Source: a virus. Taken from it: DNA of 51,285 bases. Under the pieces are notes generated by a model that did not search any database, was not told the DNA's origin, and saw only the letters and a list, made by a program, of their open reading frames with translations. A program made the position numbers and the translations under genes. Each line of letters begins with the position of its first letter. Within the stretch, counting starts at the first letter, position 1. Shown here piece by piece: positions 7,169-51,285 of this stretch. The stretch is from IMG/VR virus record IMGVR_UViG_3300015360_000059, positions 1 through 51,285 of that record, one strand, 5' to 3'.

Positions 7169-7173
7169 TTAAA

Positions 7174-24311: not shown

Positions 24312-24409
24312 AAGCTTATATCCTCCGATAAATTATTAAAAGCAAAGACTTAATTATTTCTAACCTCTTAAGAGTTATGCCTTGCCTTATAGATAAATAA
24401 AGTACAAAT

Positions 24410-25201: not shown

Positions 25202-25207
25202 ATTTTA

Positions 25208-26624: not shown

Positions 26625-26628
26625 GAGA

Positions 26629-27174: not shown

Positions 27175-27176
27175 TG

Positions 27177-29152: not shown

Positions 29153-29201
29153 AGATGTGTTACTAGTTATACACTTATAGTGATGACTAAGTATACTACT
29201 T

Positions 29202-29690
29202 CTAGTTAAACTTTTCTATACAAAAATTGAGGAGAGTTTCTTCTGGTTTAAATGACACTCTAAAATATGAGTAACCGTCAGCTGTAAGTACTTGATCTTT
29301 TTTGTTACCTTTAGTTTTTCCATCAGCACAAACTAGGCAAAGGTATTCTTCATCTGGATCAAAATAAATGATGACACCTAAGTCCTCATCTTTACCTATA
29401 AGTCCACCCTTCATCTCGCAATCTTCTAAGAAAAGAAGCTTTCTTTCTTTGTAAAGTTCTATAACTAAGTCTTTATTTAGTTCTAACTCTCTATCCCAAT
29501 CGAAGGGTTGGATGTCTAGGGAGAGGGCGTGTATAGTGCCTGAGTCTAAATAGGTACTACCAACTATGAGAATAACTGGCTTAAGTTTCTTGCCTCTTGC
29601 CATTTTTAGTAAGTCATCCGTATCGGATGCTATCTGTTTCTTTAGCTCTTTAGAGCCTAATAGTTTAAATGATTTAACTGATTTAGACAT
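29202..29690 (-). CDS. Hypothetical protein
   Basis: The 162-residue protein is alpha/beta with a KPVILIVGSTYL strand-loop near 37-48 that is not a P-loop. It is acidic in the middle. No family is recognised. It lies in tandem with a zinc-ribbon protein upstream and the clamp loader downstream. Confidence 0.55.
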   Translation of the reverse strand: MSKSVKSFKLLGSKELKKQIASDTDDLLKMARGKKLKPVILIVGSTYLDSGTIHALSLDIQPFDWDRELELNKDLVIELYKERKLLFLEDCEMKGGLIGKDEDLGVIIYFDPDEEYLCLVCADGKTKGNKKDQVLTADGYSYFRVSFKPEETLLNFCIEKFN

Positions 29691-29692
29691 CG

Positions 29693-29935
29693 TTAAGAAA
29701 CCTGTTCAAATCTATCTTTTATAAGTCCTCTTTCTACAAAGCTCGTGTAGGTCTCTGCTGAGAGTTGCCACATTTGCCTAACTTTATCTCTACAAAAGGC
29801 ACCTTGGCATTCTGTGCAAAGGAACCATTTTTTAGTGCCATCATTCGTCTTTTCGACTAGATAAAATTCTTTATTATCTGATGGAAGGGGTATTAGTGAA
29901 TTTTCTTTTTCGGGACAACAAAAAGGACAATCCAT
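29693..29935 (-). CDS. Small zinc-ribbon protein
   Basis: The 80 residues contain CPFCC at 3-7 and CTEC at 40-43 (plus C48), giving one four-cysteine ribbon with a beta-rich insert, followed by a helix. Such proteins bind nucleic acid or mediate contacts. The gene is followed 2 nt later by the unknown 29202 gene. Confidence 0.6.
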   Translation of the reverse strand: MDCPFCCPEKENSLIPLPSDNKEFYLVEKTNDGTKKWFLCTECQGAFCRDKVRQMWQLSAETYTSFVERGLIKDRFEQVS

Positions 29936-29957
29936 TTTTAAAATAACCTCTATTATT

Positions 29958-29999
29958 AAAATAGCCCTAAGTTACTCAAAGAGTTGATAGGGCTATTTT
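29958..29999. terminator. Bidirectional intrinsic terminator
   Basis: AAAATAGCCCT and AGGGCTATTTT pair over 11 bp, and an inner ACTC/GAGT stem extends the loop. On the minus strand it ends the 30010-30246 message. Confidence 0.85.
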
Positions 30000-30009
30000 A
30001 AAACTTTTC

Positions 30010-30246
30010 CTAGTCTACTTGCTCCCAAACGCCATCAATATTTATCAATAGCTGAGTATCGTTTTTATCGAATACTAGACATCCATCTGGTAGAGATGTT
30101 GGATCTGGTAGAGCCGCTGCGTTAGCGAAAATTTTCACTAAGCCTTCTGTTTTTCTTGACCTTCCAGTCTCGCCTTGAGCCGTACCATTTATTTTCTTAA
30201 CTCTAGTTACAGGTCGAACCTGTTGTTTCTTTTTACTTGTTGACAT
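30010..30246 (-). CDS. Small monocistronic virion-like protein
   Basis: The 78 residues have a very basic N-terminus (KKKQQVRPVTRVKK) and a C-terminal GCLVFDKNDTQLLINIDGVWEQV element. The latter resembles the short beta-hairpin found in many phage fibre or structural subunits. It has its own promoter-like sequence and terminator. The role is unknown. Confidence 0.55.
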   Translation of the reverse strand: MSTSKKKQQVRPVTRVKKINGTAQGETGRSRKTEGLVKIFANAAALPDPTSLPDGCLVFDKNDTQLLINIDGVWEQVD

Positions 30247-30263
30247 TTTGTATATACCTCGTT

Positions 30264-30291
30264 ATTTTAAAATTTTTAGATTGCAATCCAA
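30264..30291 (-). promoter_or_regulatory. Sigma-70-like promoter
   Basis: On the minus strand, TTGGAT (30286-30291) is followed after 16 nt by TAAAAT (30264-30269), about 18 nt upstream of the ATG at 30246. Confidence 0.45.
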
Positions 30292-30311
30292 TAACCCGTT
30301 AATATTTCAGA

Positions 30312-30566
30312 TTATTCTGTAGATATAGTACTTGTTGAGGACCTTTTAGTTATCTCGTGATCTACGGCTTTATTTACAGAATCTTTTAGTTGGCCCAGAG
30401 ACTTTTCTGTAAGCCCACTTAGAAATATTATGTAATCATTAAGTTTCAAACAGGTACCTGCCTTACTTAAATTTCCACTGTCGTCTAGAAGCAAGGTATC
30501 GCTTTCACACCAGTCAAAACTAGGTACTAAAGTTGAGGGGTCCATGGGGCTTTTAAGGTCTGTCAT
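30312..30566 (-). CDS. Hypothetical small protein
   Basis: The 84-residue, acidic, Ser/Leu-rich protein has one amphipathic C-terminal helix. The ATG overlaps the end of the preceding gene, showing translational coupling. No motif is recognised. Confidence 0.5.
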   Translation of the reverse strand: MTDLKSPMDPSTLVPSFDWCESDTLLLDDSGNLSKAGTCLKLNDYIIFLSGLTEKSLGQLKDSVNKAVDHEITKRSSTSTISTE

Positions 30567-30820
30567 TAGTCAGTTTCAATAAAAATAAAATCTAAGTCAT
30601 TCTGCAATTTCTTAAGCCTTGCAGTACAAATATTAAAAAGTTCTGCTACCTTGGGGTCTTCGTATTTTTTAATCTCGCTTAAATCTTTACTGGAATTGAT
30701 GTTATAATTACTACAAAGGGTAGTGAGGGTAAAACAAACATCATTCAACTCGGTTATCAAAGTAGATAACTCTTTTAAGTCGTGGTTAGAAAAATTATCT
30801 AGGTTCAAGTGGCTTAACAT
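30566..30820 (-). CDS. Hypothetical small helical protein
   Basis: The 84 residues are acidic and helical with three scattered cysteines. It is coupled to the following gene by overlap. No family is recognised. Confidence 0.5.
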   Translation of the reverse strand: MLSHLNLDNFSNHDLKELSTLITELNDVCFTLTTLCSNYNINSSKDLSEIKKYEDPKVAELFNICTARLKKLQNDLDFIFIETD

Positions 30821-30911
30821 ATACTTCCCATACTTAATAAAAAGTATGAAATATTTAATAAAATTAAGAATAACAAAAATAAATACTTATGTCAAAGGTG
30901 GGTAAGAAAAA

Positions 30912-31157
30912 TTAGGTTATAGTTTTTTTACTAGAGTGGTTTGTGCTAATAACTTTTATTCTGTAGGAGGATGCGGAAAAATCAGAACACTCAAAAAGAA
31001 CTTCTTCGAGCTTCCTGGCTATGGCCTTTTGAACTTCAAAAATTGAGCTAGCCTGAAGTTCAGATATTTCTAAAGAATCTAAATCTACGGAAATAGAGAT
31101 TGTGGCCTCGGCTAAAACCTTAGTTTGAATTTCACAGCCTTTTTTAACCTCTCCCAT
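30912..31157 (-). CDS. Hypothetical small alpha/beta protein
   Basis: The 81-residue protein is the first gene of the long minus-strand block leaving the divergent control region, so it is probably expressed early. The strand-helix-strand pattern (ISISVDLDSLEIS, then a helix, then SYRIKVIST) could form a small ferredoxin-like domain. Nothing further can be assigned. Confidence 0.5.
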   Translation of the reverse strand: MGEVKKGCEIQTKVLAEATISISVDLDSLEISELQASSIFEVQKAIARKLEEVLFECSDFSASSYRIKVISTNHSSKKTIT

Positions 31158-31585
31158 TAGAAAACTTAGCCTCTTATTTTAATATAGTTTTATCTAAGAA
31201 CTAAAACCTGTACCAGAGACGATTTTAAGTGAAATGGAGGGAATCTAAAAGTTAAACAAAAATAGATCTCTGTCTTCTAATCCTAATTATATTATAGTAG
31301 GGTTCTTATAGATCTAGAGTACCATTTTTTTCAGAGATCATAAAGGTATAAGTATTACAAGTAGTTACCAACAAGAACTTTTTCCAATGGAAAAGTTTAT
31401 TTAATCAAAAATTTTCTTTAAAAGGGGCTGTACTATAGTGATTTTATAGCCCGATAAGCTGTCGAATTAATGCTCTTAATTGGATTCAAAACTCCTTAAA
31501 GTTACAAGATCTTCTAATCCTTGAGTCCAGTAAAAGAACAACACTTCAATAGCCATTAAGAGGTAAAATAAGGAGAATCAATATT
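31158..31585. promoter_or_regulatory. Gene-free divergent control region with hairpins and direct repeat
   Basis: This AT-rich stretch separates the long minus-strand block from the plus-strand block. It holds an exact 12-nt direct repeat TCTTCTAATCCT (31273-31284 and 31510-31521). It also has three hairpins: 31376-31397 (AACTTTTTCC/GGAAAAGTT), 31425-31452 (GGGCTGT/ATAGCCC) and 31465-31481 (AATTAA/TTAATT). A minus-strand promoter for 31157 and upstream plus promoters are expected here, but I found no hexamer pair I would defend. I found no tRNA and no long ORF. Confidence 0.5.
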
Positions 31586-31657
31586 ATGTTAGAAGTAATA
31601 ATTATGGCATTAGTAGGGGCAGTTTGTTACCTATTTGGTGCTCGATGTAAGTGCTAA
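31586..31657 (+). CDS. 23-residue hydrophobic mini-protein
   Basis: ATG at 31586 follows AAGGAGA with 10-nt spacing. The product, MLEVIIMALVGAVCYLFGA followed by RCKC, is a single transmembrane segment with a cationic, cysteine-containing end. It is too short for standard gene calls. It is followed by a 12-bp inverted repeat. A regulatory or membrane-acting peptide is plausible. Confidence 0.55.
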   Translation: MLEVIIMALVGAVCYLFGARCKC

Positions 31658-31666
31658 TCACTTAAT

Positions 31667-31718
31667 AAAATACCTTCGTTTATCTGTTATTTACTTAGCA
31701 ATTGATCGAAGGTATTTT
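31667..31718 (+). terminator. Long-loop inverted repeat after mini-ORF
   Basis: AAAATACCTTCG (31667-31678) and CGAAGGTATTTT (31707-31718) are perfect complements over 12 bp with a 28-nt loop. It lies just past the mini-ORF stop and ends in a short T-run, so it is a probable terminator or a structured 3' end. Confidence 0.6.
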
Positions 31719-31736
31719 ACTATTTAACTTAAAAAT

Positions 31737-31765
31737 TTGATTTAACTTTTTAAAAATGTTATAAA
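31737..31765 (+). promoter_or_regulatory. Strong sigma-70-type promoter of the plus-strand operon
   Basis: TTGATT (31737-31742) and TATAAA (31760-31765) are 17 nt apart. The predicted start, near 31772, falls at the beginning of a hairpin ATAAGC-GTTTT-GCTTAT (31770-31786). The exonuclease mRNA would thus begin with a hairpin, a known stabilising arrangement. Confidence 0.7.
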
Positions 31766-31803
31766 CTCTATAAGCGTTTTGCTTATATTTATTGGAGTTT
31801 ATA

Positions 31804-32475
31804 ATGGCCCTAAAAATCAACCTGCCCAACCCTTTAATTGTATTTGATACCGAAACTGGCGGCCTAGATGGTGACTTCGAGATCAAGTGGAATCGAGACC
31901 AGTGTTTGAAAGCCTCAGTAAACTCCATAGTAGAAGGAAGGGTAACTAAGACCCCCGCACCTATTCTAGAGATAGGAGCCGTTGTATTAAGTCCAAGTAC
32001 TTTAGATGAGATAGCGGTATTCCACACAATTTGCGGACCAGAGAAAGGTCAAACTATAGAAAACTTTATGTCACAATGTAGTGACCAAGCTCTAAAGATT
32101 AACGGATTTGGAGAAAGAGTTTCTGAGCTAGCTGAAGCCAAGCCTCTTAGTGAATGTCTAAAAGATTTCATTAAATTCATTCCCAATAGATTTATGGCGG
32201 GCGGCCAAAATCTCAGATTCGACATGCATATGATTGAATCCGCATGTTATAGGTTCGGAATTAATTACGCATTTAGAGCAACTCCAATTGAGTTAGCTCC
32301 CTTAGCCCAGATTTATTTCTCTCTACCTGATACACCAATTGTAGCTAACTATAAGCTTACAACTATAGCTCAAGCTCTCGGAGTTCCTACAGAAAACGCA
32401 CATACAGCTTTAGCAGATGTTAGAATGACTGTTGCCTGCCTTAAGAAAATTCTAGAAAAATTTACTTCTTTTTAA
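31804..32475 (+). CDS. DEDDh 3'-5' exonuclease (DnaQ-like)
   Basis: The 223 residues carry all three exonuclease motifs: FDTET (D15, E17), GQNLRFD (D140) and HTALADV (H200, D205), which defines the DEDDh group. It degrades DNA or RNA from the 3' end, for proofreading or nucleotide recycling. It is first in the plus-strand operon behind a strong promoter. The ATG at 31804 is chosen because TTGGAG, six bases upstream, is its ribosome site; the in-frame TTG at 31792 is part of that site. Confidence 0.88.
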   Translation: MALKINLPNPLIVFDTETGGLDGDFEIKWNRDQCLKASVNSIVEGRVTKTPAPILEIGAVVLSPSTLDEIAVFHTICGPEKGQTIENFMSQCSDQALKINGFGERVSELAEAKPLSECLKDFIKFIPNRFMAGGQNLRFDMHMIESACYRFGINYAFRATPIELAPLAQIYFSLPDTPIVANYKLTTIAQALGVPTENAHTALADVRMTVACLKKILEKFTSF

Positions 32476-32539
32476 AAAAAAACTAAAGGTATTTTTAAAA
32501 CAGCCGATAGGTAATGTATAACCAGGAGTTACTTTAATT

Positions 32540-34096
32540 ATGACAAACAAAAAATACGATTCTTCAGCAATTAAAATGTTCGGTATGGATGCAGAGTTTA
32601 AGTTCTGCCATCTACCTTTTATAGTAGTAGACGATGTGCTTGGCTGTATAGCTTTAGAAGGTACATCAGGTAGTGGCAAAACTACCTTAGCTAAACGACT
32701 AGGCAAGCTCAATGAACTTGCAACTGGAGGAAAAGTAAAAGTATTCTCCGCAGATAAAGCTAGGTACGAAGATTTTATCGGTATCCCCATTCCTGACGAG
32801 AAGACAGGTAGAATGAAAGTCTATCCAATGGATAACTCTGTCTCACAAATGGAGACTGTAGTAATCGACGAAGCTAACCGAGCTAATTACGAAAACCAAG
32901 AGAAGTGGATGAGTCTCATCGCAACACGAGAGATTGACGGACTTGATACACGGTGTAAGTATATCTATCTAGCAATGAATCCAGTTTTAGGAGAAGGCAA
33001 TGACACCTACGAAGGAGTAATGCCCCTAGACAAGGCAATGGGAGAAAGAATTTACGCCCTAATTACTATGAGTTCTTTTAGCAAGCTGCCAAAAGCAGTT
33101 CGATACGAAATTATGAAGTCTAGTGTTAACAATCAGACAAGCTGGAACCCCACAGAAGAGGATGTTCATCGTCATAGTTTGTATGTAGCCCAAGCTAGGC
33201 AAGTATACGGTGACCTTAAAAACTCTGATTCTCTAGGTAAGGTCTTAGATTATATTGATGCTGTGCAAATGGATCTTAAGAAGGAAACTAAAGGACATAT
33301 TACAATTGAAGCCCGTCGAGCCCAATTTATTGTTACAAATATTCTCGCAGTACACGCTTTAAATAGAGCTGATGGGGGAGTAATATCTTTAGAAGATTCT
33401 GCAGTAGCTGCTCTTAGTTTGAGCTTTCCTAACAGATTATGGGAACAGCCAATCAATAACGAAGCCTTAAGAATGTCTCACGAAAGGTTTAAGAACATCC
33501 TTAAGTCAGACTCTTCAGCTAAAGATAGGGCAGTTCTAGATTTTGAAGGGCTTGAGTCTTCGCTAAACGAAGTAGAAAACTTTTCTAGAAAGATGCCCCT
33601 TCCAGATAAAGAACAAATATCTAAGGTAATCAACCAAAGTTTGCCGGACGAGAAAGAACATTATGTAAACCACTTAATCTTCTCTATCGGGGCTGTTAAA
33701 GGATTGACACTAAAGCTTGGAGCGAATAAAAAGCAAGGCGTAATGAAACAACAAGAGTTTGAAAGACTTTCAAACATCTCTAAGCTAGTAGAAGACACTA
33801 GCGAATACAAGAAGTATAAACTAGCTTTTGATCACATAATGGAAAAAGACGAACTCCCAGAAAACATGGATATCCCTACCTGTATAGCAGAAGATGCTGG
33901 TAATGGTAGTGATGGTTTTGAAGAGTTAGTTAGGTCGATGTTTGGAATGGACTCTGCCCCCTTTATTATGGGTGTGCTAGAGTTGGCCAAGGTCAAGCTT
34001 ACTTCTACATCTCAATTTATCGCTCTTACGGATAAAATTGTTTCAGCAACAGGAACCTTCTCTGGGGTTGCAGATTTGTACGCCTCTAAGGTATAA
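32540..34096 (+). CDS. MoxR-type AAA+ ATPase with extra C-terminal domain
   Basis: The 518-residue protein has Walker A GTSGSGKTT (41-49), Walker B TVVIDEANRA (D110/E111) and sensor 1 Asn147 (LAMNP). An RYEDFIGIP element near 75-83 is typical of MoxR ATPases, which remodel partner complexes together with VWA proteins. Residues about 364-505 form a separate helical domain that is repeated as a free protein by the next gene. It is followed by that gene and by a metallopeptidase/VWA gene with 7-nt and 4-nt junctions, an operon like RavA-ViaA or MoxR-CoxE pairs. Confidence 0.82.
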   Translation: MTNKKYDSSAIKMFGMDAEFKFCHLPFIVVDDVLGCIALEGTSGSGKTTLAKRLGKLNELATGGKVKVFSADKARYEDFIGIPIPDEKTGRMKVYPMDNSVSQMETVVIDEANRANYENQEKWMSLIATREIDGLDTRCKYIYLAMNPVLGEGNDTYEGVMPLDKAMGERIYALITMSSFSKLPKAVRYEIMKSSVNNQTSWNPTEEDVHRHSLYVAQARQVYGDLKNSDSLGKVLDYIDAVQMDLKKETKGHITIEARRAQFIVTNILAVHALNRADGGVISLEDSAVAALSLSFPNRLWEQPINNEALRMSHERFKNILKSDSSAKDRAVLDFEGLESSLNEVENFSRKMPLPDKEQISKVINQSLPDEKEHYVNHLIFSIGAVKGLTLKLGANKKQGVMKQQEFERLSNISKLVEDTSEYKKYKLAFDHIMEKDELPENMDIPTCIAEDAGNGSDGFEELVRSMFGMDSAPFIMGVLELAKVKLTSTSQFIALTDKIVSATGTFSGVADLYASKV

Positions 34097-34103
34097 GGTA
34101 AAA

Positions 34104-34583
34104 ATGATAGTAGCAGAAGAAATGACAATGATTGATAAAAATTTACCAGGCGACAGAGAGCATTATTTAAATGTACTGCTCTTCTGTGTCGCGGCGAGTA
34201 GAGGATGGCATCCAACATCCAGGGTAAGTAATGAGCAAGAGAAAGTTGAGGTTATTTCAAATATTACTGAATTAGTAGAAACTACTGACCAGTATAAGAA
34301 ATATAAAACAATATTTGACCATATACAAGAAAGTAATACAGTACCAGAAGCTGTAGAACTTCCTGCATTTCTTACAGAAGCTAAGGGTAGTGATGGGTTT
34401 GAAAGTCTAGTTAGATCGCTTTTAGGATTTAGTAATACGCCTCATTTAATGGGTATACTTCAGGTAGCTAAGATAAAACTTACCCGTTTATCGCAATTTT
34501 TCTTTCTTATGGATAGGTTTCACATGTCAATCCTCGCTTTACATCCGACCAAAGATCAAGTTATAGAAGAGAAGATAAAATGA
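34104..34583 (+). CDS. Stand-alone duplicate of the MoxR protein's C-terminal domain
   Basis: The 159-residue protein aligns along most of its length with residues about 364-505 of the preceding ATPase. Shared features include N-L-P-x-x-x-E-H-Y, [KQ]YKKYK, FDHI, GSDGFE.LVRS and the MGxLxxAKxKLT segment. It has no ATPase motif. The ATG at 34104, with AAGG upstream, is preferred over upstream in-frame starts that lie inside the ATPase gene. Its stop overlaps the next start (ATGA). It may be a regulator or extra subunit binding the same partner. Confidence 0.72.
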   Translation: MIVAEEMTMIDKNLPGDREHYLNVLLFCVAASRGWHPTSRVSNEQEKVEVISNITELVETTDQYKKYKTIFDHIQESNTVPEAVELPAFLTEAKGSDGFESLVRSLLGFSNTPHLMGILQVAKIKLTRLSQFFFLMDRFHMSILALHPTKDQVIEEKIK

Positions 34584-36367
34584 AGACAATAGAAGAATTT
34601 CTCGAAGAGTTAAATAAACTTCCCTCTGAATCAAAAGAGGCAGTAGTACTTCCTCTACCTGAAAAGCCAGAGGAGTTTTTATCTCAACTTATTGAAGCTT
34701 ATCCTAGAGAAGATTTTCCAACTCTCAGAAAAGTTATAGCGATTGGAAAGGTTAAGTACATTGATAAAGACCTAATGCCTGGAATGCCAATGACAGCAGC
34801 AGTGATGAATACTAAACCAGTGACACTGATGTTTGGTAAGAAGTTTATGGAGGAAACTACCAGAACTTTAGAAGACAGACAGTACATTTTTTCTCACGAA
34901 CTGACGCACTTAGTTCTAGACCACTTTGCTAAGGATATTATCGAGCAGTTTGAAAAAGCCCGCAAAGTTATGGTAAAGGTTAAGGATGAAGTTACTGGAG
35001 AAGAGACTGGCGAGGAGAAAGAAGAGTTCGAGGGACTAGGGTTCAAGGCAATGCATATTATAGTTGACTGCCAAGTAAACGCTACTGTTATTAACTCCTT
35101 GAAAGACCCTAAGTACCACGAGTTTGTAAAGAGCTATTACCATAAAGAAGCTGTTCCCTATTGTTTCTTTCGGCCTGATGGAATTCCAACTTACAATATT
35201 GAGGGACAAGAGCCTGACCTAGAAGACGAGAAGACCTCATTAATCATTGCATCTGAACATTTTCATGATCAACAGACTGATCCAAGATTAATGAAGCTAA
35301 TGAAGTTTAAGCCCACTTTAGTACCATTAAAACCAGAAATGGAAGCTACTCTCAGACAGCTACACACCGACCTATACTCTGAAGACGGGGTTACTAATAA
35401 AGAGCTTATTGATAAGTTAATGCCTTGGTTTGAAGAGAAGCAAGATAGCTTAGACCAGATGATTTCTAAGTTACTAGGCAACCATAAAGATATTTTATCA
35501 GATAGGGGAGGTTCGGGAAGCAATTCAGATGAAATGTCTGATATAGCAGATGCCCTGGCTTCAGATTTGTCTGAATACCTAAATAAAAAACAAGATAAAG
35601 AGCAACCAGGGCCTAGCAATAAAGAAGGCGAGGGTACTGAAGACGGCGAGAGCCCAAGTGGAAGGAAGGCCGGTAAAGGCGGGGATCTTAGAGATAGACA
35701 GTTGAAAAACTTTATAGAAGACAATGCAGCTATTAAAGCAATTAGGAATAATTTAAAAGTCAAGTTAGTAATCAGCCCCGTATCTAGAATTTTTAAAGCT
35801 ATTGAAGATTATGTACCAAGAGTCTCTGTAAGGTCTGTTGTACCTAATTTTCACGATAGACGCACTGCTACAATGTACGCAAAAGGCAGGATGCCTGTGT
35901 TTCATACACGCCCTCAGATAGGAAGTAAGGTATTGGTGCCTTGCTATCTAGATGTGTCTGGCTCACAAGAACATGTATTAGATCATACTTCTTTGGCAGT
36001 ATCAAAACTTAGGCAAGAACTAGGTAATGTTGTATACTGTTTCTCTACTAAAATTTACGAGGCAAAAGTCACTAGTTTAAAAAATAGAGATTCAATTCAA
36101 AGTACGGGCGGGACAGATTTTGATATCGTTGCCGAACATATCTTAAAGAATAACTTCAGATGTGCAGTTATTATTACGGATGGGGAGGCAAGTCTAGACT
36201 CTAGATTAGCAGAAAAATTAAAGCAGAGAAATGTACAAATTACCGTAGGTTGGACGACACCTAGCCCTAGCAAGTACCCATTAGAGCAAGTTGCTAAAAA
36301 AACCTTCTTTGTATTCGATCCTAATCAGTACCAGGAAGCTGTAACTAAATCTAGGCAGGGACGATAA
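34580..36367 (+). CDS. Metallopeptidase-like/VWA protein, partner of MoxR ATPase
   Basis: The 595 residues comprise an N-terminal zincin-like domain with SHELTH (105-110) and an IVDCQVNA helix (161-168). A charged linker (about 305-370) follows, then a C-terminal VWA domain with MIDAS residues D458-x-S460-x-S462, T512 (TGGTDF) and D534 (IITDGEA). This is the DUF2201 (VWA-like metallopeptidase) layout found next to MoxR ATPases in bacteria. The ATPase and VWA protein probably act together as a remodelling complex. The protease part may be active, since HExxH is intact. Confidence 0.8.
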   Translation: MKTIEEFLEELNKLPSESKEAVVLPLPEKPEEFLSQLIEAYPREDFPTLRKVIAIGKVKYIDKDLMPGMPMTAAVMNTKPVTLMFGKKFMEETTRTLEDRQYIFSHELTHLVLDHFAKDIIEQFEKARKVMVKVKDEVTGEETGEEKEEFEGLGFKAMHIIVDCQVNATVINSLKDPKYHEFVKSYYHKEAVPYCFFRPDGIPTYNIEGQEPDLEDEKTSLIIASEHFHDQQTDPRLMKLMKFKPTLVPLKPEMEATLRQLHTDLYSEDGVTNKELIDKLMPWFEEKQDSLDQMISKLLGNHKDILSDRGGSGSNSDEMSDIADALASDLSEYLNKKQDKEQPGPSNKEGEGTEDGESPSGRKAGKGGDLRDRQLKNFIEDNAAIKAIRNNLKVKLVISPVSRIFKAIEDYVPRVSVRSVVPNFHDRRTATMYAKGRMPVFHTRPQIGSKVLVPCYLDVSGSQEHVLDHTSLAVSKLRQELGNVVYCFSTKIYEAKVTSLKNRDSIQSTGGTDFDIVAEHILKNNFRCAVIITDGEASLDSRLAEKLKQRNVQITVGWTTPSPSKYPLEQVAKKTFFVFDPNQYQEAVTKSRQGR

Positions 36368-36402
36368 CAAACTTTAGTAAGTATTTATTACAGGAATGAA
36401 TC

Positions 36403-37074
36403 ATGGAAACAGCCCTTATTGACAAGAGAGCAGAAGATTTAGCAGATTTAAAAGCTCTCTACCACCATATGAGAGATAGAGTCCAGTCTTTAAGAGACTC
36501 AGGTAAGACTATTTACCCAGCTCAGCAAGATCTCTTAAGTGCGTTTAAGCACTTTGATTTCGATTCTGTAAAAGTAGTTCTACTAGGGCAAGATCCCTTT
36601 TTCAACGAGAATCAAGCAACAGGTATGTCCTTCTCTGTACCTAATGGAGTCAAATTACCTGTGTCTTTAAAGAACATATTCAAAGAACTAGAGGAAGATT
36701 TAGGAATAAAAAATTCAACAGGCGACTTGGATTATTGGGCACAGCAGGGCGTCTTACTTCTCAATAGAGTTTTATCTGTAGAAGCCGGTAGGTCTGGTTC
36801 ACACAGGGACATTGGCTGGGAAGAGTTTAGTAACAAAGTCATTTCCTATTTAAGCACCTACTCTGATAGAGTAGTTTTTATATTGTGGGGCAAAGATGCT
36901 CTAGAGGTAAAAGCCCTGATTGATGAATCAAGGCATAAAATTTTGACTGCCACCCATCCCTCGCCTATGTCGGCACATAAAGGATTTTTTGGCTGCAAGC
37001 ACTTTTCTCAAGCAAATCAATTTCTTGTAGAAGCGGGGAAAGAACCTATAGATTGGAGCTTATCTCATGGCTAA
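36403..37074 (+). CDS. ung: Uracil-DNA glycosylase, family 1
   Basis: The 223-residue enzyme removes uracil from DNA. It has the water-activating loop LLGQDPFF (61-67, D64), LLLNRVLS with N121 for uracil recognition, and HPSPMSAHKGF with H185. In typical UNG the loop is GQDPYH; here Tyr66 and His67 positions are both Phe. Length and the rest of the motifs are normal. It is expressed from the plus-strand operon, and its stop overlaps the next start. Confidence 0.9.
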   Translation: METALIDKRAEDLADLKALYHHMRDRVQSLRDSGKTIYPAQQDLLSAFKHFDFDSVKVVLLGQDPFFNENQATGMSFSVPNGVKLPVSLKNIFKELEEDLGIKNSTGDLDYWAQQGVLLLNRVLSVEAGRSGSHRDIGWEEFSNKVISYLSTYSDRVVFILWGKDALEVKALIDESRHKILTATHPSPMSAHKGFFGCKHFSQANQFLVEAGKEPIDWSLSHG

Positions 37075-42739: not shown

Positions 42740-43903
42740 ATGACAATTAAATGTGTAGGTCCCATATTCGATGTCAGTGGTTATGGCGAATGGGCTAGGT
42801 CTTTTATGTCTGCCTTAATTGATGAAGGGGCAGATATCACAATTTCTCCGATTTCTTTTGAAAAAAATAGACCCGACCTTGGTGAGCTAGGCGAAAAACT
42901 AAAATCAAAAATAAATGTTAAAAGCATCTACGACAAAGTAGTAGGATGGGTTACTCCAGAAGTAGCTTATAGTGTTTTCCAAAACGAGCCTGCTAGTGTA
43001 AAGAAAATAAATATGACCTTGTGGGAGACGACAAAAATACACCCAGACTGGTGTAAATGTATAAGTACATTTAATGAGTTATGGGTACCAGGAGAATGGA
43101 ATAAAAAAGTCTTTAAAGATAGTTTACTAGAATTTGAAAAACAAAACCAAGGGTTTGAGTCTTTAAAGTCCCTCCCGATCAAAGTAGTACATACACCACT
43201 TGTCTCTGCTAAAGAAGAGTCCAGTAGCTTAAATACCTTTTTCATGTTGCAGGACTCTCTAACTGGCGAGCTATTTGATAATTCCTATTTTGCATTTTAC
43301 TTTATCTCACAATGGAGTGAAAGAAAAAACTTCGTAGACTTGATAATAGCATATTGGGCCGCATTCCAGAAAAACGAGAAAGTAGTTCTAGTGCTAAAGA
43401 CTTACCTAGGTGGGCATACTACAGATGAACTAGATTTTTTCAGAAGAATGTTAGCTAATTTAGCAGTGGCGGCAAATAGTCAGACCTTGCCAAAAGTTTG
43501 TATAATAAACCAAGTACTCTCTAAGACGCAGATGTCTGCCTTACACAAAAGGGGAGACTGCTATGTAAACCCCTCTAGAGGAGAAGGATTGGGGCTTGGC
43601 TTAGTAGAAGCCTCCCTATTCGGTAATCCTGTTATAACAAACTTATTTGGTGAACAGAGTACTTATTATAATGAAAGTAATGCTATGATTTACGGACATA
43701 CTTTAAAACCTGTTATAGGGCAAAATAGTTGCTGGTACAGTATTGAACAGCTGTGGGCTGCGCCTGATATGGTTAGTCTAATAGATAGGCTAAAGTATGC
43801 ATTCAGTAATAAACTAGAGACTAAACAGCTAGCCTTAAACGCTAAAAAAGATATAGAAGGCTTTAGTAATATTAAGCAAATTGTCAAACAGATTGTGGAG
43901 TAA
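42740..43903 (+). CDS. GT4-like glycosyltransferase
   Basis: The 387-residue protein has an N-terminal DVSGYGEWARSF element typical of GT4 acceptor domains. Its C-terminal donor domain contains ISQWSERKN, LSKTQMSALHKRGDCYV and PSRGEGLGLGLVEASLFGNPVI, the usual E-x7-E-like nucleotide-sugar site. It probably extends or decorates a glycan. It is followed by a second glycosyltransferase after 2 nt. Confidence 0.8.
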   Translation: MTIKCVGPIFDVSGYGEWARSFMSALIDEGADITISPISFEKNRPDLGELGEKLKSKINVKSIYDKVVGWVTPEVAYSVFQNEPASVKKINMTLWETTKIHPDWCKCISTFNELWVPGEWNKKVFKDSLLEFEKQNQGFESLKSLPIKVVHTPLVSAKEESSSLNTFFMLQDSLTGELFDNSYFAFYFISQWSERKNFVDLIIAYWAAFQKNEKVVLVLKTYLGGHTTDELDFFRRMLANLAVAANSQTLPKVCIINQVLSKTQMSALHKRGDCYVNPSRGEGLGLGLVEASLFGNPVITNLFGEQSTYYNESNAMIYGHTLKPVIGQNSCWYSIEQLWAAPDMVSLIDRLKYAFSNKLETKQLALNAKKDIEGFSNIKQIVKQIVE

Positions 43904-43905
43904 TT

Positions 43906-44991
43906 ATGAAAATCTTATATGTCTCTAGTAACCACGCTGTTTTGGAGTACGATGACTGCCAGATATTTACTAGATTGGGTATTGACTGGTTTTCTACTGG
44001 GATATACATGGATCCTCAAAATCCCGATCCTTTTCATAAAAGAAGGGCTATAGCCAAGATCGCAGATCACAATCTTATACAAGAGTTTAAGTCTACTAAC
44101 CCTACGCAGGACTGTAATAGACATCTTAGACCTCACTTTCCCATTAGATTGACAGAAGATTTCGTAGATAAATTTGATTGTGTTATAGTCAATAACTTTT
44201 TTTATCTACTAACGGATAATTGGAATGTATTAAAAAACAGAAAAAATGTATTTTTTAGAACTTATTATTATACCAGCCCTCAACAAGAACATCAAATGGG
44301 GCTAATGAGACAGGAAGGTTTGAAGGTAATTAGGATGTTTGAAGAGGAGCTTACCCTAAAGGGAGGTTGCCCAACTGACTTTCTAATTCCCAATCATATC
44401 GATCCTAATGAGTACGATAACTGGGTGGGCAATGATCTAAGTATACTAACCTTCCAGAACGACTTTGCAACTAGAATAACCCACAGAGACGAGTATGGCA
44501 CTCAAGTATTTAAAGCCTACGCAGAGTACATAAACTTTATTAAGGCAAACCCTGATCTTAAATATAAACTGCATGGCTACAATAATAATGTTCCAGGTTT
44601 TGATAGAGGCACGGTCTCTTGGGAAGAGCAAAAAGAGTTATATAAAGACAGTAGAATCTATTTCTCTTTGGGCAGCTTTCCAGCGCCTTACACTTATAAC
44701 TTCCTAGAAGCTATGTGCGTAGGAACTCCTACTCTTAACTTTGGTCCGAAACTAGGGGACTACGATCATCCTTGGTTTAGTAATAGTTATAGGGTCCATA
44801 AGATTATCGAGAATGAAGTGGATGGTTTTTATTCGGACGATATAAATGTACTTGCTTCCTATGCAAGGGAACTCTTAAATAATGAAACTCTAGCTAAGCA
44901 GGTATCTGTTAAAGCTAGAGAAAAAATTATTAAGCTTTTTTCTATAGATAACGCCGTAGTTAATTGGAAAGCTTTCTTCGATTCTTTGTAA
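43906..44991 (+). CDS. GT-B-like glycosyltransferase, paralogue of the 41575 gene
   Basis: The 361-residue protein shares with the minus-strand paralogue the start MKILYVSSNH, a FSTGIYMDP segment, a YGxNNxxxGF region and the donor motif PAPYTYNFLEAMCVGTPTL. The two probably arose by duplication and then inverted orientation. A GGAG ribosome site precedes the ATG, and a bidirectional terminator follows the stop. Confidence 0.75.
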   Translation: MKILYVSSNHAVLEYDDCQIFTRLGIDWFSTGIYMDPQNPDPFHKRRAIAKIADHNLIQEFKSTNPTQDCNRHLRPHFPIRLTEDFVDKFDCVIVNNFFYLLTDNWNVLKNRKNVFFRTYYYTSPQQEHQMGLMRQEGLKVIRMFEEELTLKGGCPTDFLIPNHIDPNEYDNWVGNDLSILTFQNDFATRITHRDEYGTQVFKAYAEYINFIKANPDLKYKLHGYNNNVPGFDRGTVSWEEQKELYKDSRIYFSLGSFPAPYTYNFLEAMCVGTPTLNFGPKLGDYDHPWFSNSYRVHKIIENEVDGFYSDDINVLASYARELLNNETLAKQVSVKAREKIIKLFSIDNAVVNWKAFFDSL

Positions 44992-46369: not shown

Positions 46370-46597
46370 ATGCAAGATGAAATCGACTTGACTCACCTAC
46401 TAGGAGCTTGGACCGTAACCAAAGAAGTTCTAGTAAAAAATCCTTTCGGCGACTTTACTCTCAAGACTGGGGAAACAATTAAAGTAATTAAAACAGACTC
46501 TGCCTTAGATAGGGTATTAATCGAAGTACCTAACGGCAAAATTGACTGGAAAAGACTCCCATGGCTAACTCAACATAGCAGTAAGATTAGTCAATAG
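46370..46597 (+). CDS. Hypothetical small protein, lone plus-strand gene
   Basis: The 75-residue beta-rich protein follows AGGGA and its own promoter. Its 3' end overlaps the convergent minus-strand gene by 11 bases. The pattern of strands (TVTKEVLVKN, GETIKVIKTDS, RVLIEVPN) suggests a small beta barrel such as an SH3-like fold. The function is unknown. Confidence 0.5.
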   Translation: MQDEIDLTHLLGAWTVTKEVLVKNPFGDFTLKTGETIKVIKTDSALDRVLIEVPNGKIDWKRLPWLTQHSSKISQ

Positions 46598-46790
46598 ATT
46601 TACAGATCCATTCTACATTGTAGTTTGAGGAGTCTGCATCAAGGTATCGGGCAGCTAGTGTTCCAGAAAAGCTATACCTGGTGCCGTCGATTAGACTCAA
46701 AGAAGCTTCGAAGATAGAGTCAGAGTCCCTGTTAACCTCTACTGAATATGTTCCACTAACTACCAATTCGTCTAAATTTAGTTGTCTCAT
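46587..46790 (-). CDS. Trp-tail family member (divergent), array end
   Basis: The 67-residue protein is beta-rich and ends YNVEWICKSID, close to the YNVNWW ending of the 47666 protein but with one Trp. It is the last gene of the coupled minus-strand array. Its small size suggests a minimal single domain. Confidence 0.5.
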   Translation of the reverse strand: MRQLNLDELVVSGTYSVEVNRDSDSIFEASLSLIDGTRYSFSGTLAARYLDADSSNYNVEWICKSID

Positions 46791-46797: not shown

Positions 46798-47208
46798 CTA
46801 TAGTAAGTTTTGCATCTGTTTATTCGGTAATTTAACTAACCACCAATCTTCGTTAAAGCTAAGCAGGCTCAGTCTTATCTCAGTTTGTTTAGAGAAGGTT
46901 ACTCGATATTCATATTTATGGATCCTATCGGGAGTAGCATTAATTAGAGATACCCACGCATCGTCAAAAACTCTGTTAATAGTTACAGGGTAAGAGTATG
47001 ATACATCTTTGTATTTTGAGCTGAGTATGGAAGTTTTAAACTGAAAATTACTTATAACTATAAAACTTTCCTTATCAGACTTGTCATCGTTCGTGCCGCT
47101 AAGAAAGTTTCCATAAGGCAGTGTTCTCTCTAACTCTTCTTTGGTAAGACAGAATAGCCCCAAATTTAGTTTAAATATTCTAAGCAGGTCTTTCTTATTC
47201 TGGTTCAC
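46798..47208 (-). CDS. Trp-Trp tail family protein
   Basis: The 136 residues have a helical start and beta-rich remainder, ending IRLSLLSFNEDWWLVKLP plus a short tail. The GTG start overlaps the preceding TGA (GTGA). The family is unknown; the C-terminal strand followed by WW is the shared feature. Confidence 0.55.
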   Translation of the reverse strand: MNQNKKDLLRIFKLNLGLFCLTKEELERTLPYGNFLSGTNDDKSDKESFIVISNFQFKTSILSSKYKDVSYSYPVTINRVFDDAWVSLINATPDRIHKYEYRVTFSKQTEIRLSLLSFNEDWWLVKLPNKQMQNLL

Positions 47209-47669
47209 TTAGTTAGCCACCAGTCTACTGCGTAAGTACTGACAGGTAGGTCAACAATATGCGTTGACCAAGTAAGGACATTTATTGGTACCTGCTCTAA
47301 AAAAATAGCAACCATGTAATTTGAACCTAAATCAAGAGATACACTGGAGGTCGATTTAATAATCGCGCTTCCACGACTTTTTATAACATCATATTTAAGT
47401 ACTTTATTTTTAAAAGAGTAGATATCAAAATTAGTAGTAATATTATTTATTTCATAGCCTTTGTAATTCCCGAGGCCGAAGTTAGCTAAATTGGACCTAT
47501 GGTTTCTTTTCTGCTTGAATAAAATATTCAGGGTAGGTTGACATGAATACTCAAAAGATGTAGACATGGGTATAGAACTGTCCAATTTAGTTGTGAGTTT
47601 TATCAAGCCTAGCTTATGATAGGCTATAGCCAAATCTTTAGCGGCAAAAGGATTAAACTTGTGACTCAT
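47205..47669 (-). CDS. Trp-Trp tail family protein
   Basis: The 154-residue protein is mainly beta-strand and ends VSTYAVDWWLTK. The start overlaps the preceding stop (ATGA). It has no recognised motif beyond the family ending. Confidence 0.55.
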   Translation of the reverse strand: MSHKFNPFAAKDLAIAYHKLGLIKLTTKLDSSIPMSTSFEYSCQPTLNILFKQKRNHRSNLANFGLGNYKGYEINNITTNFDIYSFKNKVLKYDVIKSRGSAIIKSTSSVSLDLGSNYMVAIFLEQVPINVLTWSTHIVDLPVSTYAVDWWLTK

Positions 47670-48007
47670 GCAACCACTATGTTAGGTATTAACCACCAGT
47701 TTACATTATAGTCACCAACAGACTCTGCGTGTACATCTATAGGAGTATCTGAGGAGCTATAAAAATGTAACTCAGCTACTTCACCTGTTAGGACTCCGGT
47801 GCTCCTGGTGATAGGTAAGGTATCTTTTAGTTTACAATTAGGATACCAGCAGTATACACCTAACTTTCTATAAAGACTGATTTTTCTTAAAGATCCGTCT
47901 TTAAATTCAGTCAAGTCTCTAGTAGTAATTAGAGTATACTTCTTGTTACGATCAATCAGATCAAAACTAGTGTATATCCTTCTAAAGTAAGTATCTTCTA
48001 AATCCAT
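47666..48007 (-). CDS. Trp-Trp tail family protein
   Basis: The 113 residues have IDVHAESVGDYNVNWWLIPN near the C-terminus, a variant of IDVYTKG...TLWWFLPK in the 48015 protein. This shows the similarity extends upstream of the Trp pair. The stop overlaps the next start. Confidence 0.55.
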   Translation of the reverse strand: MDLEDTYFRRIYTSFDLIDRNKKYTLITTRDLTEFKDGSLRKISLYRKLGVYCWYPNCKLKDTLPITRSTGVLTGEVAELHFYSSSDTPIDVHAESVGDYNVNWWLIPNIVVA

Positions 48008-48014: not shown

Positions 48015-48383
48015 TTATTTTAAATTACTGTCTTTAGGCAGAAACCACCACAGGGTTTTATAATCAATCTTATTATAAGCAAGTACTCCGCTAGTGCCTT
48101 TTGTATATACATCAATAGATGTTGAAGTTTGATAAGAAGTTACCGCCGCCTTGAAAAAAGCAAAATTTAAGTTTATGCTAGATGGCTTACCTAATGCAGA
48201 GTTCGTTCCCTTAGCTACTTCTTTCATGTTAGTTGAGTGAACTAATAACACTAGGGTACCAAAGGGTATTGATTTTAGGTCGTCAATATCATAACTGTGT
48301 AAGGAAAGTTGCCTACTAATAATTTGATTAACTTCTAAAGTTAATCCTTCCGAGAAGAACGATAAAATACTCATACCAACCAT
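48015..48383 (-). CDS. Trp-Trp tail family protein
   Basis: The 122-residue protein contains a TSIDVYTKG strand and ends YKTLWWFLPKDSNLK. Its N-terminus includes an internal MSILSFF start that is also possible. The role is unknown. It marks the junction between the Trp-tail and DR-tail gene runs. Confidence 0.55.
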   Translation of the reverse strand: MVGMSILSFFSEGLTLEVNQIISRQLSLHSYDIDDLKSIPFGTLVLLVHSTNMKEVAKGTNSALGKPSSINLNFAFFKAAVTSYQTSTSIDVYTKGTSGVLAYNKIDYKTLWWFLPKDSNLK

Positions 48384-48399: not shown

Positions 48400-48630
48400 T
48401 TAAACTTTAGTCTTTTCTAAAAGATATTTAATAATGTGCTCTCTCGGTAAGTTATCTAGTACTTCTTTCGAGGTATCGAAATCTTCTGTAGGGGTTGTAA
48501 ACCGGAACGGGATTAGAGTGGGCAGAGGCATAGGGTTCAACGGAGGAATTGTCCATTCTTCCATATTTTTAAAGCCCTCTATAGCTAGTTCAGCTAATTT
48601 AAGTTCCTCGCTAGAGAATTGATTTTTCAT
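48400..48630 (-). CDS. DR-tail family protein
   Basis: The 76 residues have a Pro-rich centre and end LDNLPREHIIKYLLEKTKV, the shared tail with Pro in place of Asp. The body is unlike the other members. Start and stop overlap the upstream gene (ATGA). Confidence 0.6.
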   Translation of the reverse strand: MKNQFSSEELKLAELAIEGFKNMEEWTIPPLNPMPLPTLIPFRFTTPTEDFDTSKEVLDNLPREHIIKYLLEKTKV

Positions 48631-48914
48631 TTACTTCCTTCTAATAAATACTTTAATATCTCGTTTCTAGGAATGGACTTTAATACCATTGAGTAACCTA
48701 AATTTTTTATCGCGTGTGCGACCATAACTAAGTCATTAGTAGACGCCTCTATCTGGGGAACCGCACTTGACGAGCCAGAAAGTAATTGAGGTACCGTATA
48801 GGAGCTGGAAGGTATGGATGTAGAAGGTATAGATGTAGAAATAGGTTTCGAAATAATACTAAACTCTTTTGCTAATACCGCTAGAGTATCTTTAAACTTA
48901 TCTAGGTCTACCAT
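48627..48914 (-). CDS. DR-tail family protein with Ser/Pro repeats
   Basis: The 95-residue protein has a Ser/Pro-rich repeat (SIPSTSIPSSS) near 29-38 and ends LKSIPRNEILKYLLEGSK. The repeat corresponds to GGTATGGATGTAGAAGG-like direct repeats in the DNA. It is translationally coupled to the next gene. Confidence 0.6.
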   Translation of the reverse strand: MVDLDKFKDTLAVLAKEFSIISKPISTSIPSTSIPSSSYTVPQLLSGSSSAVPQIEASTNDLVMVAHAIKNLGYSMVLKSIPRNEILKYLLEGSK

Positions 48915-48916
48915 AC

Positions 48917-49240
48917 TTACTTCTTGCTTGAGTCCATTATATATTTTAGTATAATACTTCTATCCATATTTTTAAGCAATTCTAAGGCAGTGTAGTGATC
49001 TACTATGTCCTCTTCCATAATGGTTTCTAGAACTCGGTTAACCCCAATCAAAAGATGAACGAAGTCTTCAATTTTAGATTTTATATTGGGGTGATCCATA
49101 CTACTTCCCGAAAGATAGTTAATAGATGTAACATCCGTTATGGTCACCACACCAGTGCTCTTATCCTCGCTGAGAGTCTCAATACACCAGCCGCCCATAT
49201 CTTCACAGTATACGATTCTAGTTTTAATTTCTATAGTCAT
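48917..49240 (-). CDS. DR-tail family protein
   Basis: The 107 residues have a beta-rich N-terminus and a helical C-terminus ending LKNMDRSIILKYIMDSSKK. The start overlaps the preceding stop. Confidence 0.6.
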   Translation of the reverse strand: MTIEIKTRIVYCEDMGGWCIETLSEDKSTGVVTITDVTSINYLSGSSMDHPNIKSKIEDFVHLLIGVNRVLETIMEEDIVDHYTALELLKNMDRSIILKYIMDSSKK

Positions 49241-49425
49241 TTATCTAATAGGTAATTAAGAATTGTACTTCTATCTAAACAATCTAAAATCTGTTTGGAA
49301 GAAAACGGCTTTAAACTCTCTTTTAAATTAATTTCTGGAAGTTGGATTGCCCCAGTACTCCAGTAGTTTTTGCTAGGATCTAATCCTACAAAAATAGCAC
49401 CCGATGTCGTAATACTGCTATGCAT
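49237..49425 (-). CDS. DR-tail family protein, minimal
   Basis: With 62 residues this is the smallest member. The short body ends in LDCLDRSTILNYLLDK. It shows that the tail can be attached to almost no domain. Confidence 0.6.
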   Translation of the reverse strand: MHSSITTSGAIFVGLDPSKNYWSTGAIQLPEINLKESLKPFSSKQILDCLDRSTILNYLLDK

Positions 49426-49447
49426 TTGTATAGAATAGCACTACAAG

Positions 49448-49666
49448 CTAGTCTTGGCAAAGATACCGTAAGATACGCTTTCTATCAATAAAATCTAAAA
49501 CTAAGGTGCTAATAATAGGATCGTCTATCTTGTATTTATTCCCATGCCTTTCATCTATCTGCAAGAAAAGGTCTAAAAGTACTTCCTCAGTTGAAAAAGC
49601 GTCTAAGAGGGTATTAACAGCTTCACTAATCTTATATAATTTTTTATCACTATTGGTTTTATTCAT
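49448..49666 (-). CDS. DR-tail family protein
   Basis: The 72-residue helical protein ends LDFIDRKRILRYLCQD. No other motif is seen. Confidence 0.6.
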   Translation of the reverse strand: MNKTNSDKKLYKISEAVNTLLDAFSTEEVLLDLFLQIDERHGNKYKIDDPIISTLVLDFIDRKRILRYLCQD

Positions 49667-49698
49667 ATATACAGTATCGTCTTATATGTCTAATAACT

Positions 49699-50094
49699 TT
49701 AGCTAATTGCTCCCGTAGGAGGAAATAAGGGGGCCAGCCACCAGTTTGCTAGATAACTAGAGTAGTTAAAGATATAGGGTATATGAGTATGTTCCGTACC
49801 AGTTTGAAAAATCTGTATAAAGTCAGGAAACTCATTTACTATATGATAAAAATCGGAAATAAGGTGCATTCTATATAGTCTACGGCCCACTAAAATAGTA
49901 TTACTAAAGACAAGTGGATTGACTTCAATAACCTTTAATTCCCTCGTAAACCACGAGGAGATACAAGCCTTATCTTCTCGATCTAAAAAAGCATAAATTA
50001 TAGCATCACTAAATACTTCTGGCGCAAGAGTTAAATCCAAGCTACCAGTTAACTCACTGTATACTCTAGCTATATGGAGAGGGTCCGTAATCAC
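49699..50094 (-). CDS. Mixed DR-like and Trp-Trp family protein
   Basis: The 131 residues contain YAFLDREDKACISSWF near 34-49, similar to the DR tail but internal, and end LANWWLAPLF plus a Pro-rich tail. It may join both modules. The GTG start overlaps the preceding TGA (GTGA). Confidence 0.5.
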   Translation of the reverse strand: MITDPLHIARVYSELTGSLDLTLAPEVFSDAIIYAFLDREDKACISSWFTRELKVIEVNPLVFSNTILVGRRLYRMHLISDFYHIVNEFPDFIQIFQTGTEHTHIPYIFNYSSYLANWWLAPLFPPTGAIS

Positions 50095-50453
50095 TTTTGT
50101 AAGTACCTTAGTACAATGTCTCTAGGTATGAGCTGTAACAAGGAGTGGTAGAAGTCATCCGATCTTTCTGTCTCGTTTCTAACATCCCGCGAGCTATCTT
50201 TTAGCTCTCCCACGCTCAAAAGAACGGATACTCTAGAGATTAAATTAACCGCTCCCACTCTATCTAAGAGTATAGATAACATCTCTCCTATATTAAGCAT
50301 AACTTTAAAAGACTTTTCAGCCGTCTCTAGTGCAACGGCAGGGCTCACATCACCGGCCTCTACTTCTATAATAAATTCAGTAGATTGTTCTGGTAAAGTG
50401 GGTGTATTTGGGTCGCTCCAGTGCGTAAGTTTATCGAAAGAAATTAAAGACAT
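50091..50453 (-). CDS. DR-tail family protein
   Basis: The 120-residue, acidic, helical protein ends LLQLIPRDIVLRYLQK. It is preceded by a 28-residue membrane mini-ORF that ends 1 nt before its start. Confidence 0.6.
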   Translation of the reverse strand: MSLISFDKLTHWSDPNTPTLPEQSTEFIIEVEAGDVSPAVALETAEKSFKVMLNIGEMLSILLDRVGAVNLISRVSVLLSVGELKDSSRDVRNETERSDDFYHSLLQLIPRDIVLRYLQK

Positions 50454-50454
50454 A

Positions 50455-50541
50455 TTAATCAGGCTCCCTTGATATGTAGATTCCCACAGATAAGTTTAAA
50501 ATAATAACTAAGGTAAAGACAACAAAAACTATAACTAGCAT
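50455..50541 (-). CDS. 28-residue membrane mini-protein
   Basis: ATG at 50539-50541 follows GGAGGAGG (inside the end of the preceding gene) at a spacing of 11 nt. The product begins MLVIVFVVFTLVIILNL and ends ISREPD, a single transmembrane helix with a polar C-terminus. Its stop lies one base before the next start, so it fills the gap exactly. Confidence 0.65.
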   Translation of the reverse strand: MLVIVFVVFTLVIILNLSVGIYISREPD

Positions 50542-50547
50542 GATTTA

Positions 50548-50835
50548 CTAAGCCTCCTCCAATAAATACTGTAGGATGGTAGCTCTGTCAATCAAATCTA
50601 ATACACGCATCTTACCCTCATCGCTCTTTAATAACTTGCTAGACTCTAAAGCAGTAAGGAGACTACTACCTCCCGTTGCGCTACCATAGTATACTGCAAA
50701 GTAATCAGCCAGTGCTATTGCCTGACCTGGTGTCAGGGCTGCGTCTAAACTATCAGTTATGGTTCTTGTATTGACTATCTTTAATAAGTTTACTAGATCT
50801 TTAAAAGTCTTTGAATCGTGTGCTCCTCTTGTCAT
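50548..50835 (-). CDS. DR-tail family protein
   Basis: The 95-residue protein (start MTRGAHDSK) has helical segments and a small Gly/Ser-rich turn and ends LDLIDRATILQYLLEEA. The ATG at 50835 overlaps the upstream stop (ATGA), which favours it over a TTG 12 bases earlier. Confidence 0.6.
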   Translation of the reverse strand: MTRGAHDSKTFKDLVNLLKIVNTRTITDSLDAALTPGQAIALADYFAVYYGSATGGSSLLTALESSKLLKSDEGKMRVLDLIDRATILQYLLEEA

Positions 50836-51098
50836 ATTACCCACCAAGATTTTCCGTATTCTCTTAAAAGTAGAACTTGATAATGTTTATTGTAATAAAA
50901 AGTAGTGTGTCTGCTTTCGCTAATAGAGCCGTCTAAATAAACATCGCCTCCCAACTTTACTCTAGTAATTTGGTATGCTTGGTTTTTTTCAATAACAAAT
51001 AAAGTACCAGATGCATAAAACTCACTGACCTCTTTTAGAGGCTTACATGTAAGACTGAGCCATTTGGCATAAATTTTACAAAACTGCTCTGTCAGCAT
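50832..51098 (-). CDS. Trp-Trp tail family protein
   Basis: The 88 residues (start MLTEQFCKI) are beta-rich and end LLREYGKSWWVI with no tail after the Trp pair. The ATG overlaps the upstream stop (ATGCTGA). A GTG 15 bases upstream is an alternative. Confidence 0.55.
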   Translation of the reverse strand: MLTEQFCKIYAKWLSLTCKPLKEVSEFYASGTLFVIEKNQAYQITRVKLGGDVYLDGSISESRHTTFYYNKHYQVLLLREYGKSWWVI

Positions 51099-51285
51099 TT
51101 TATAATCATCCACTGTTTTTTATAAAACCTGGCCTCCAGATACATATCTACCCCTATGAAATTAGACACATTAAAAAGATATTTCTTTACATGGCTACTA
51201 TCGAAAAGTTTAGAGGCATAAAAGGTTCCACCCTTCCCTTGATTTAATAGGATCCTATCAAAAGGCTTATTTTTACCGTAAGCCC
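51092..51285 (-). CDS. Trp-tail family protein, N-terminus cut by window edge
   Basis: The frame is open from the edge to the TGA ending at 51092, giving 63 residues. It ends VDMYLEARFYKKQWMIIKC, a strand plus Trp ending akin to the neighbouring family. Only the C-terminal part is visible. It shows that the array continues beyond the window. Confidence 0.5.
   Translation of the reverse strand, partial: AYGKNKPFDRILLNQGKGGTFYASKLFDSSHVKKYLFNVSNFIGVDMYLEARFYKKQWMIIKC

Follow-up and report, generated by a model that had tools for sequence, protein, structure and literature searches.

The virus fragment IMGVR_UViG_3300015360_000059 (51,285 bases, 37% GC; the whole of this stretch is referred to here as the window) carries seven minus-strand genes, T1 to T7, at 48400-50847, whose products of 62-120 aa share one C-terminal tail. 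In all seven, the pattern [VIL]L..[LIM][DP]R..[IV][LI].Y[LI] is followed by 1-5 more residues to the protein end. A tail of this kind on seven proteins had been claimed in a sequence-only reading of the same DNA, and our analysis bears this out: the open reading frames (ORFs) lie where that reading placed them, the pattern occurs in each of them, and it is specific to the set, with no occurrence in the other window ORFs of at least 40 aa. Judged from sequence comparison, the tail is best seen as the closing unit of a short helical repeat found in other phages too, and not as an unprecedented tag. We consider the chances evenly balanced that the genes form a tandem array whose small phage proteins diverge fast and retain a common C-terminal helical interaction unit for a shared partner.

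Conservation of the tail and divergence of the bodies

The similarity of the tails was evaluated by leave-one-out searches, in which a 16-column hidden Markov model (HMM) from six tails was run against all ORFs of the window and of relatives; five IMG/VR contigs are clear relatives of the window and are named G001 (IMGVR_UViG_3300037851_000542; 260 kb), G002 (102 kb), G003 (72 kb), G004 (140 kb) and G005 (12 kb). The held-out tail was regained at E values of 1e-5 to 3e-4 (0.017 for T6), ranked directly after the six training proteins, and scored 11.9-22.0 bits versus 8.7-11.0 bits for the best match in ten shuffled sets. All 21 tail pairs also exceeded shuffles in Smith-Waterman comparisons (p ≤ 0.0025); as the tails were chosen by their motif, these pairwise p values are biased, and leave-one-out recovery is the sounder test. 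The tails are thus more alike than shuffled sequences by both measures. Codons for the same residue were identical in 77 of 153 comparisons, versus 55.5 expected from codon usage, and most of the excess comes from one arginine that is encoded by AGA in all seven tails. Because the residues are kept and the synonymous codons are near-randomised, with varying third positions, the conservation is of the peptide and not of the DNA.

The bodies that precede the tails are diverse. T1 (48400-48630; 76 aa) has a Pro-rich body and the core VLDNLPREHIIKYLL at 48418-48462, and T2 (48627-48914; 95 aa; core VLKSIPRNEILKYLL at 48642-48686) has a Ser/Pro/Thr-rich body resembling that of T3 (48917-49240; 107 aa), where a second unit, VLETIMEEDIVDHY, lies before the core LLKNMDRSIILKYIM at 48935-48979. 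These are followed by T4 (49237-49425; 62 aa; core ILDCLDRSTILNYLL at 49246-49290), by T5 (49448-49666; 72 aa; core VLDFIDRKRILRYLC at 49457-49501), with a possible additional unit LLDAFSTEEVLLDLF (p 0.07), by T6 (50091-50453; 120 aa), whose core LLQLIPRDIVLRYLQ at 50097-50141 is the weakest of the set, and by T7 (50548-50847; 99 aa; core VLDLIDRATILQYLL at 50560-50604), which has a TTG start. Smith-Waterman comparison of the 21 body pairs against shuffles identified T2/T3 as the sole clearly similar pair (p < 0.0025 over a 44-residue stretch); T3/T4 and T3/T6 were marginal (p about 0.02), and the remaining 18 pairs were no better than shuffles. The earlier description of the bodies as otherwise different therefore holds for most pairs and fails for T2 and T3, whose bodies are homologous by this measure, and probably for T4. 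Tandem paralogy consequently accounts for part of the set, and the position of T2-T4 as adjoining genes with related bodies is what tandem duplication predicts.

The sequence-only reading knew of no described phage family with this tail, a claim that did not survive profile searches. T3 matched phrog_18028, a family of the Straboviridae whose C-terminus contains three tandem copies of the unit (hmmscan E 3.1e-4), over profile positions 42-86 of 86, that is, to the last position; the other six tail proteins had no phrog_18028 match in the same hmmscan. The family consists of an 86-aa protein of unknown function from Aeromonas phages of the T4-like type (among them avDM6, UYD59502, and phage 65, ADQ53344); the avDM6 record matches it at 2e-43, and 12 more Aeromonas phage records also carry it. 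In the avDM6 protein the units ILDELGIREVVRYF, VLDHFTIQDVIDHF and LLTKMDPDVILRYL are spaced by exactly 18 residues, and its self-score is positive only at a period of 18 among periods 14-22. Without gaps, T3 aligns with this protein over 36 residues and two units (score 71, z 8.7, none of 2000 shuffles as good), and a gapped alignment extends over most of the T3 C-terminal half, about 50 residues. The final 31 residues of T4 also match the avDM6 protein (p 0.002). When phrog_18028 and T3 were combined in hhalign, T4 was matched in its final 29 residues and T5-T7 in their final 16-19 only; the T2 body was unmatched, and whole-length homology was not found.

The window tails and phrog_18028 therefore resemble each other in the C-terminal unit, [IV]LDxF.xxxV[IV]xYF in the latter (LLTKMDPDVILRYL in avDM6), and differ in its arrangement: phrog_18028 has three tandem units in one gene per phage record, whereas the window spreads its units over seven proteins, mostly one to a protein. 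Two units can be recognised in T3 and perhaps in T5, and one in each of the others; none has the three units of phrog_18028. The last unit is variable even within phrog_18028, where Ceceduovirus members end in IMDAL. A loose regular expression for the unit matched the window seven times, on each occasion at the C-terminus of one of T1-T7, versus one match in about 0.6 million residues from 14 relative records.

Other searches for the tail gave little. It is absent from the five close relatives by profile and sequence searches, Pfam had no match to the tail proteins, and no close relative of any tail protein was found in IMG/VR. A tblastn search with the tails and their consensus against 50,697 phage records gave nothing significant, and its weak avDM6 match led to phrog_18028. 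The tail profile was also run against 28 further virus records that carry volactin, an actin-like protein discussed below, and returned nothing beyond weak matches and a truncated look-alike in G027, the single fair match over the 32 related records scanned; the G027 protein, ending ...KQILDNMDR, lacks the helix, and we read the resemblance as fortuitous or as a relic. In IMG/VR, degenerate DNA patterns for the two forms of the tail, D and P, hit 16 and 49 stretches, none of them with the motif at the C-terminus of a convincing gene; these patterns assumed AGR codons for arginine, and tails coded with CGN would escape them. The tail thus appears to be a lineage-specific expansion.

Shared C-termini on other arrays of small genes

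The array setting is the more unusual part of the finding. Interleaved with the tail genes are minus-strand genes with a second shared C-terminus, Y..xWW[LIV], here called W genes: five of them (46587-46790, 46798-47208, 47205-47669, 47666-48007 and 48015-48383; C-terminus Y..xW[WYI][LIVC]), one between T5 and T6 (49699-50094) and one upstream of T7 (50832-51113), with the array running beyond the contig end. The W C-terminus also occurs in G001 (24040-24600, 49617, 59134 and 237515-239038) and G002 (87466-102188), and a profile trained on these two relatives only placed the seven W genes as its top seven window matches, three at E < 0.005 and the rest weak. The G002 array comprises about 15-20 genes downstream of a glycosyltransferase block and a single-stranded DNA-binding protein (SSB) gene, and the window array likewise follows a glycosyltransferase block. 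Two G002 neighbors, at 96665 and 97332, are identical at both ends and have diverged in between (82 of 109 residues identical), a pattern that marks them as recent duplicates and as a snapshot of array growth. Many G002 W members also have a common N-terminal LL.K.Y helix. The AlphaFold2 model of a W protein was poor, and Foldseek with this model gave no match. Between T7 and T6, a mini-ORF at 50454-50547 encodes a hydrophobic product of 28 aa, MLVIVFVVFTLVIILNLSVGIYISREPD, possibly a single-span membrane peptide. A promoter scan of the array region gave no clear excess over shuffles.

A third shared C-terminus was found in G001, where 59 proteins from the regions 224-8830, 24000-37000 and 249000-257900 carry at their very end a motif near [LIF][YF]Y[LF]I-COOH. 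Position -3 is Tyr in 40 of the 59 and position -1 is Ile in 50; their codons vary, and at E 1e-3 they fall into 56 body groups. One of the tagged proteins (31871-32767) has ankyrin repeats above the Pfam Ank_2 cut-off. As the end pattern was defined post hoc, the frequency of the same pattern inside proteins and the genome core served as controls against chance: small G001 genes carry a terminal [YFWHILV][YWHFIL][LFIVYHW][IV] in 54 of 263 cases versus 1.6 expected from the internal frequency, and the array regions have 50 tagged genes of 85 (0.6 expected) versus none of 185 in the core. Because of the internal-frequency control and the empty core, a chance origin of these ends is untenable, and the G001 array is a stronger finding than the tail itself.

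The W and [YF]Y[LF]I-COOH arrays resemble the tail array in that their genes are small, lie largely on one strand and combine a conserved C-terminus with dissimilar bodies, but the motifs differ. A single motif uniting DR..IL.YL and [YF]Y[LF]I was considered and rejected: the top 100 matches of the tail profile include nine tagged G001 proteins versus 2.6 expected, and the reverse search fails. Nor did the profile of the DR..IL.YL tail and that of either the W or the [YF]Y[LF]I ends match one another reciprocally. The other volactin viruses had no comparable excess of similar C-termini, except for a small set in G013, where the products of five adjoining small genes (67315-68676) resemble one another at the C-terminus, which contains WN and then [VI]K or the like, and in part at the N-terminus (LPCP).

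Possible origins and roles of the shared ends

Under the explanation that we prefer, the seven genes would lie within one tandem array of fast-evolving small genes in a large tailed bacterial virus and would descend, wholly or partially, from a single ancestral small protein by tandem duplication. The N-terminal parts would have diverged, shortened or been replaced, with retention of a C-terminal unit of about 15 residues, presumably the last copy of the 18-residue helical repeat seen in phrog_18028. This unit may fold as a short helical hairpin, since the AlphaFold2 model of T7 places its last two helices at 76-85 and 88-98 with a pLDDT of about 70, and it could offer an interaction surface to one partner (a phage protein, a host protein or one another), leaving the bodies to act on differing targets. 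A common docking, sorting or degradation role is possible, and gains plausibility from two other conserved C-termini that occur on arrays of small proteins in related viruses. Several observations weigh on the other side. The T7 model as a whole is poor (mean pLDDT 51); the bodies of T1, T6 and T7 have no clear homology to the rest, which leaves common descent unproven for the full-length proteins; the lack of the tail in close relatives leaves no orthologues to show constraint; and the shared partner is, on present sequence data, a postulate.

The serious rival, quite possible although we would not call it probable, is that the genes are plain paralogues of a duplicated small helical protein whose C-terminus is its most constrained part, with neither partner nor tag. 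The homology of the T2 and T3 bodies, the marginal T3/T4 similarity, the kinship of T3 and phrog_18028 well beyond the tail, and the G002 duplicates, which kept their ends and changed their middle without need of a tag, would all be consistent with such an origin. It accords less well with the shuffle-like scores of 18 of the 21 body pairs, the differing lengths and body compositions of the seven proteins, and the G001 end that is shared by 56 body groups, one with ankyrin repeats. A nucleic-acid element at the gene ends (ribosome-binding site, operator or recombination site) might also mimic peptide conservation, as the genes touch or overlap and several ends contain the Shine-Dalgarno sequence of the next gene. 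However, the core starts 16-20 codons before the stop, upstream of the Shine-Dalgarno sites, and the DNA copies agree at no more than about 69-86% of positions over 21-32 nt; because the codons vary at their third positions, this scarcely credible reading is largely refuted. Equally far-fetched is a membrane-targeting amphipathic helix common to the seven proteins. A hydrophobic helix spans their last 11-15 residues, and several of the ends have a weakly basic character, yet the hydrophobic moments (0.16-0.53) fall within the background of large window proteins (mean 0.29, 90th percentile 0.49) and the net charge of the ends ranges from -2 to +2.

Two known systems suggest further roles by analogy. 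The internal proteins of phage T4 are small and highly diverse and have a conserved N-terminal capsid targeting sequence for packaging (PMC3012670), and the window proteins similarly are diverse, small and alike only in a terminal sequence. Despite this strong conceptual precedent, we think it improbable that the tail carries small counter-defence proteins into the prohead: it is C-terminal, only one of the seven proteins has a net positive charge (+1) and the other six range from acidic to neutral (-7 to 0), no structural protein of the window has the motif, and the head genes are far away. Poxvirus ANK/PRANC proteins recruit the eukaryotic ubiquitin ligase of their host through a shared, larger C-terminal domain (PMC2842262, PMC3185573), and many bodies with one C-terminal module, some of them with ankyrin repeats in the G001 array, recall this arrangement, although no sequence relation to the window tails was shown. 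By this analogy the tail could be a degradation or adaptor tag that delivers the proteins, or host targets bound to them, to a host protease (ClpXP or Lon) or a phage-made hub. One hydrophobic terminus on many bodies would fit an adaptor, but the tail is not known to resemble ssrA-type degrons, and we regard this role as very unlikely.

The preferred reading, in which the tail docks to a shared partner, may be widened to the lineage. Its large tailed viruses would then join unrelated bodies to short lineage-specific C-terminal docking modules (DR..IL.YL and Y..xWW[LIV] in the window, [YF]Y[LF]I-COOH in G001), thereby bringing dozens of small effectors to one partner, for example a virus-made hub, a compartment or a hijacked host machine. 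Such a plug-in effector system would be new for phages, and we consider its existence doubtful; limited literature searches retrieved no description of phage gene arrays with shared ends and changing bodies. Should the ends serve for docking, a single bait would identify the partner common to dozens of uncharacterised small viral proteins, and the set of bodies would amount to a list of host targets. If the ends are merely what diverging duplicates have retained, the arrays still show a route by which large phages make new small proteins, by copying a gene, keeping its ends and rewriting its middle. Shared-end arrays also help to explain the orphan look of such genes.

Viral relatives and host

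The window encodes a terminase, a portal protein, a clamp loader, an SSB and an actin-like protein of the volactin family, and has a weak capsid match; no close match to it was present in the annotated phage collection. Its gene order is shared with the relatives across most of 645-38913. Since G001 encodes a bacterial-type DnaB and release factor 1, the hosts of the window virus and its relatives are probably bacteria. A search for more distant relatives via capsid and terminase did not reveal the host. The release factor 1 (prfA) of G001, at 42822-43907, is a full-length bacterial protein (527 bits) in a phage genome.

Volactin has been described from haloarchaea. The actin-like protein of the window (25208-26260) matches the Pfam Volactin family at E 4.9e-59, and dozens of large IMG/VR viruses also have volactin. 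A volactin search of cellular genomes matched one Planctomycetota metagenome-assembled genome (MAG) contig, from which no host was assigned. In the terminases of the window, G001 and G003, the Walker A motif is followed by an intein-like insertion; for the window terminase, an NCBIfam intein match was not found. The ribonucleotide reductase of G001 has an intein match. These intein-related loci, comprising terminases and the G001 ribonucleotide reductase, lie at 16593-19196 in the window and at 194856-197372 and 216019-218796 in G001.
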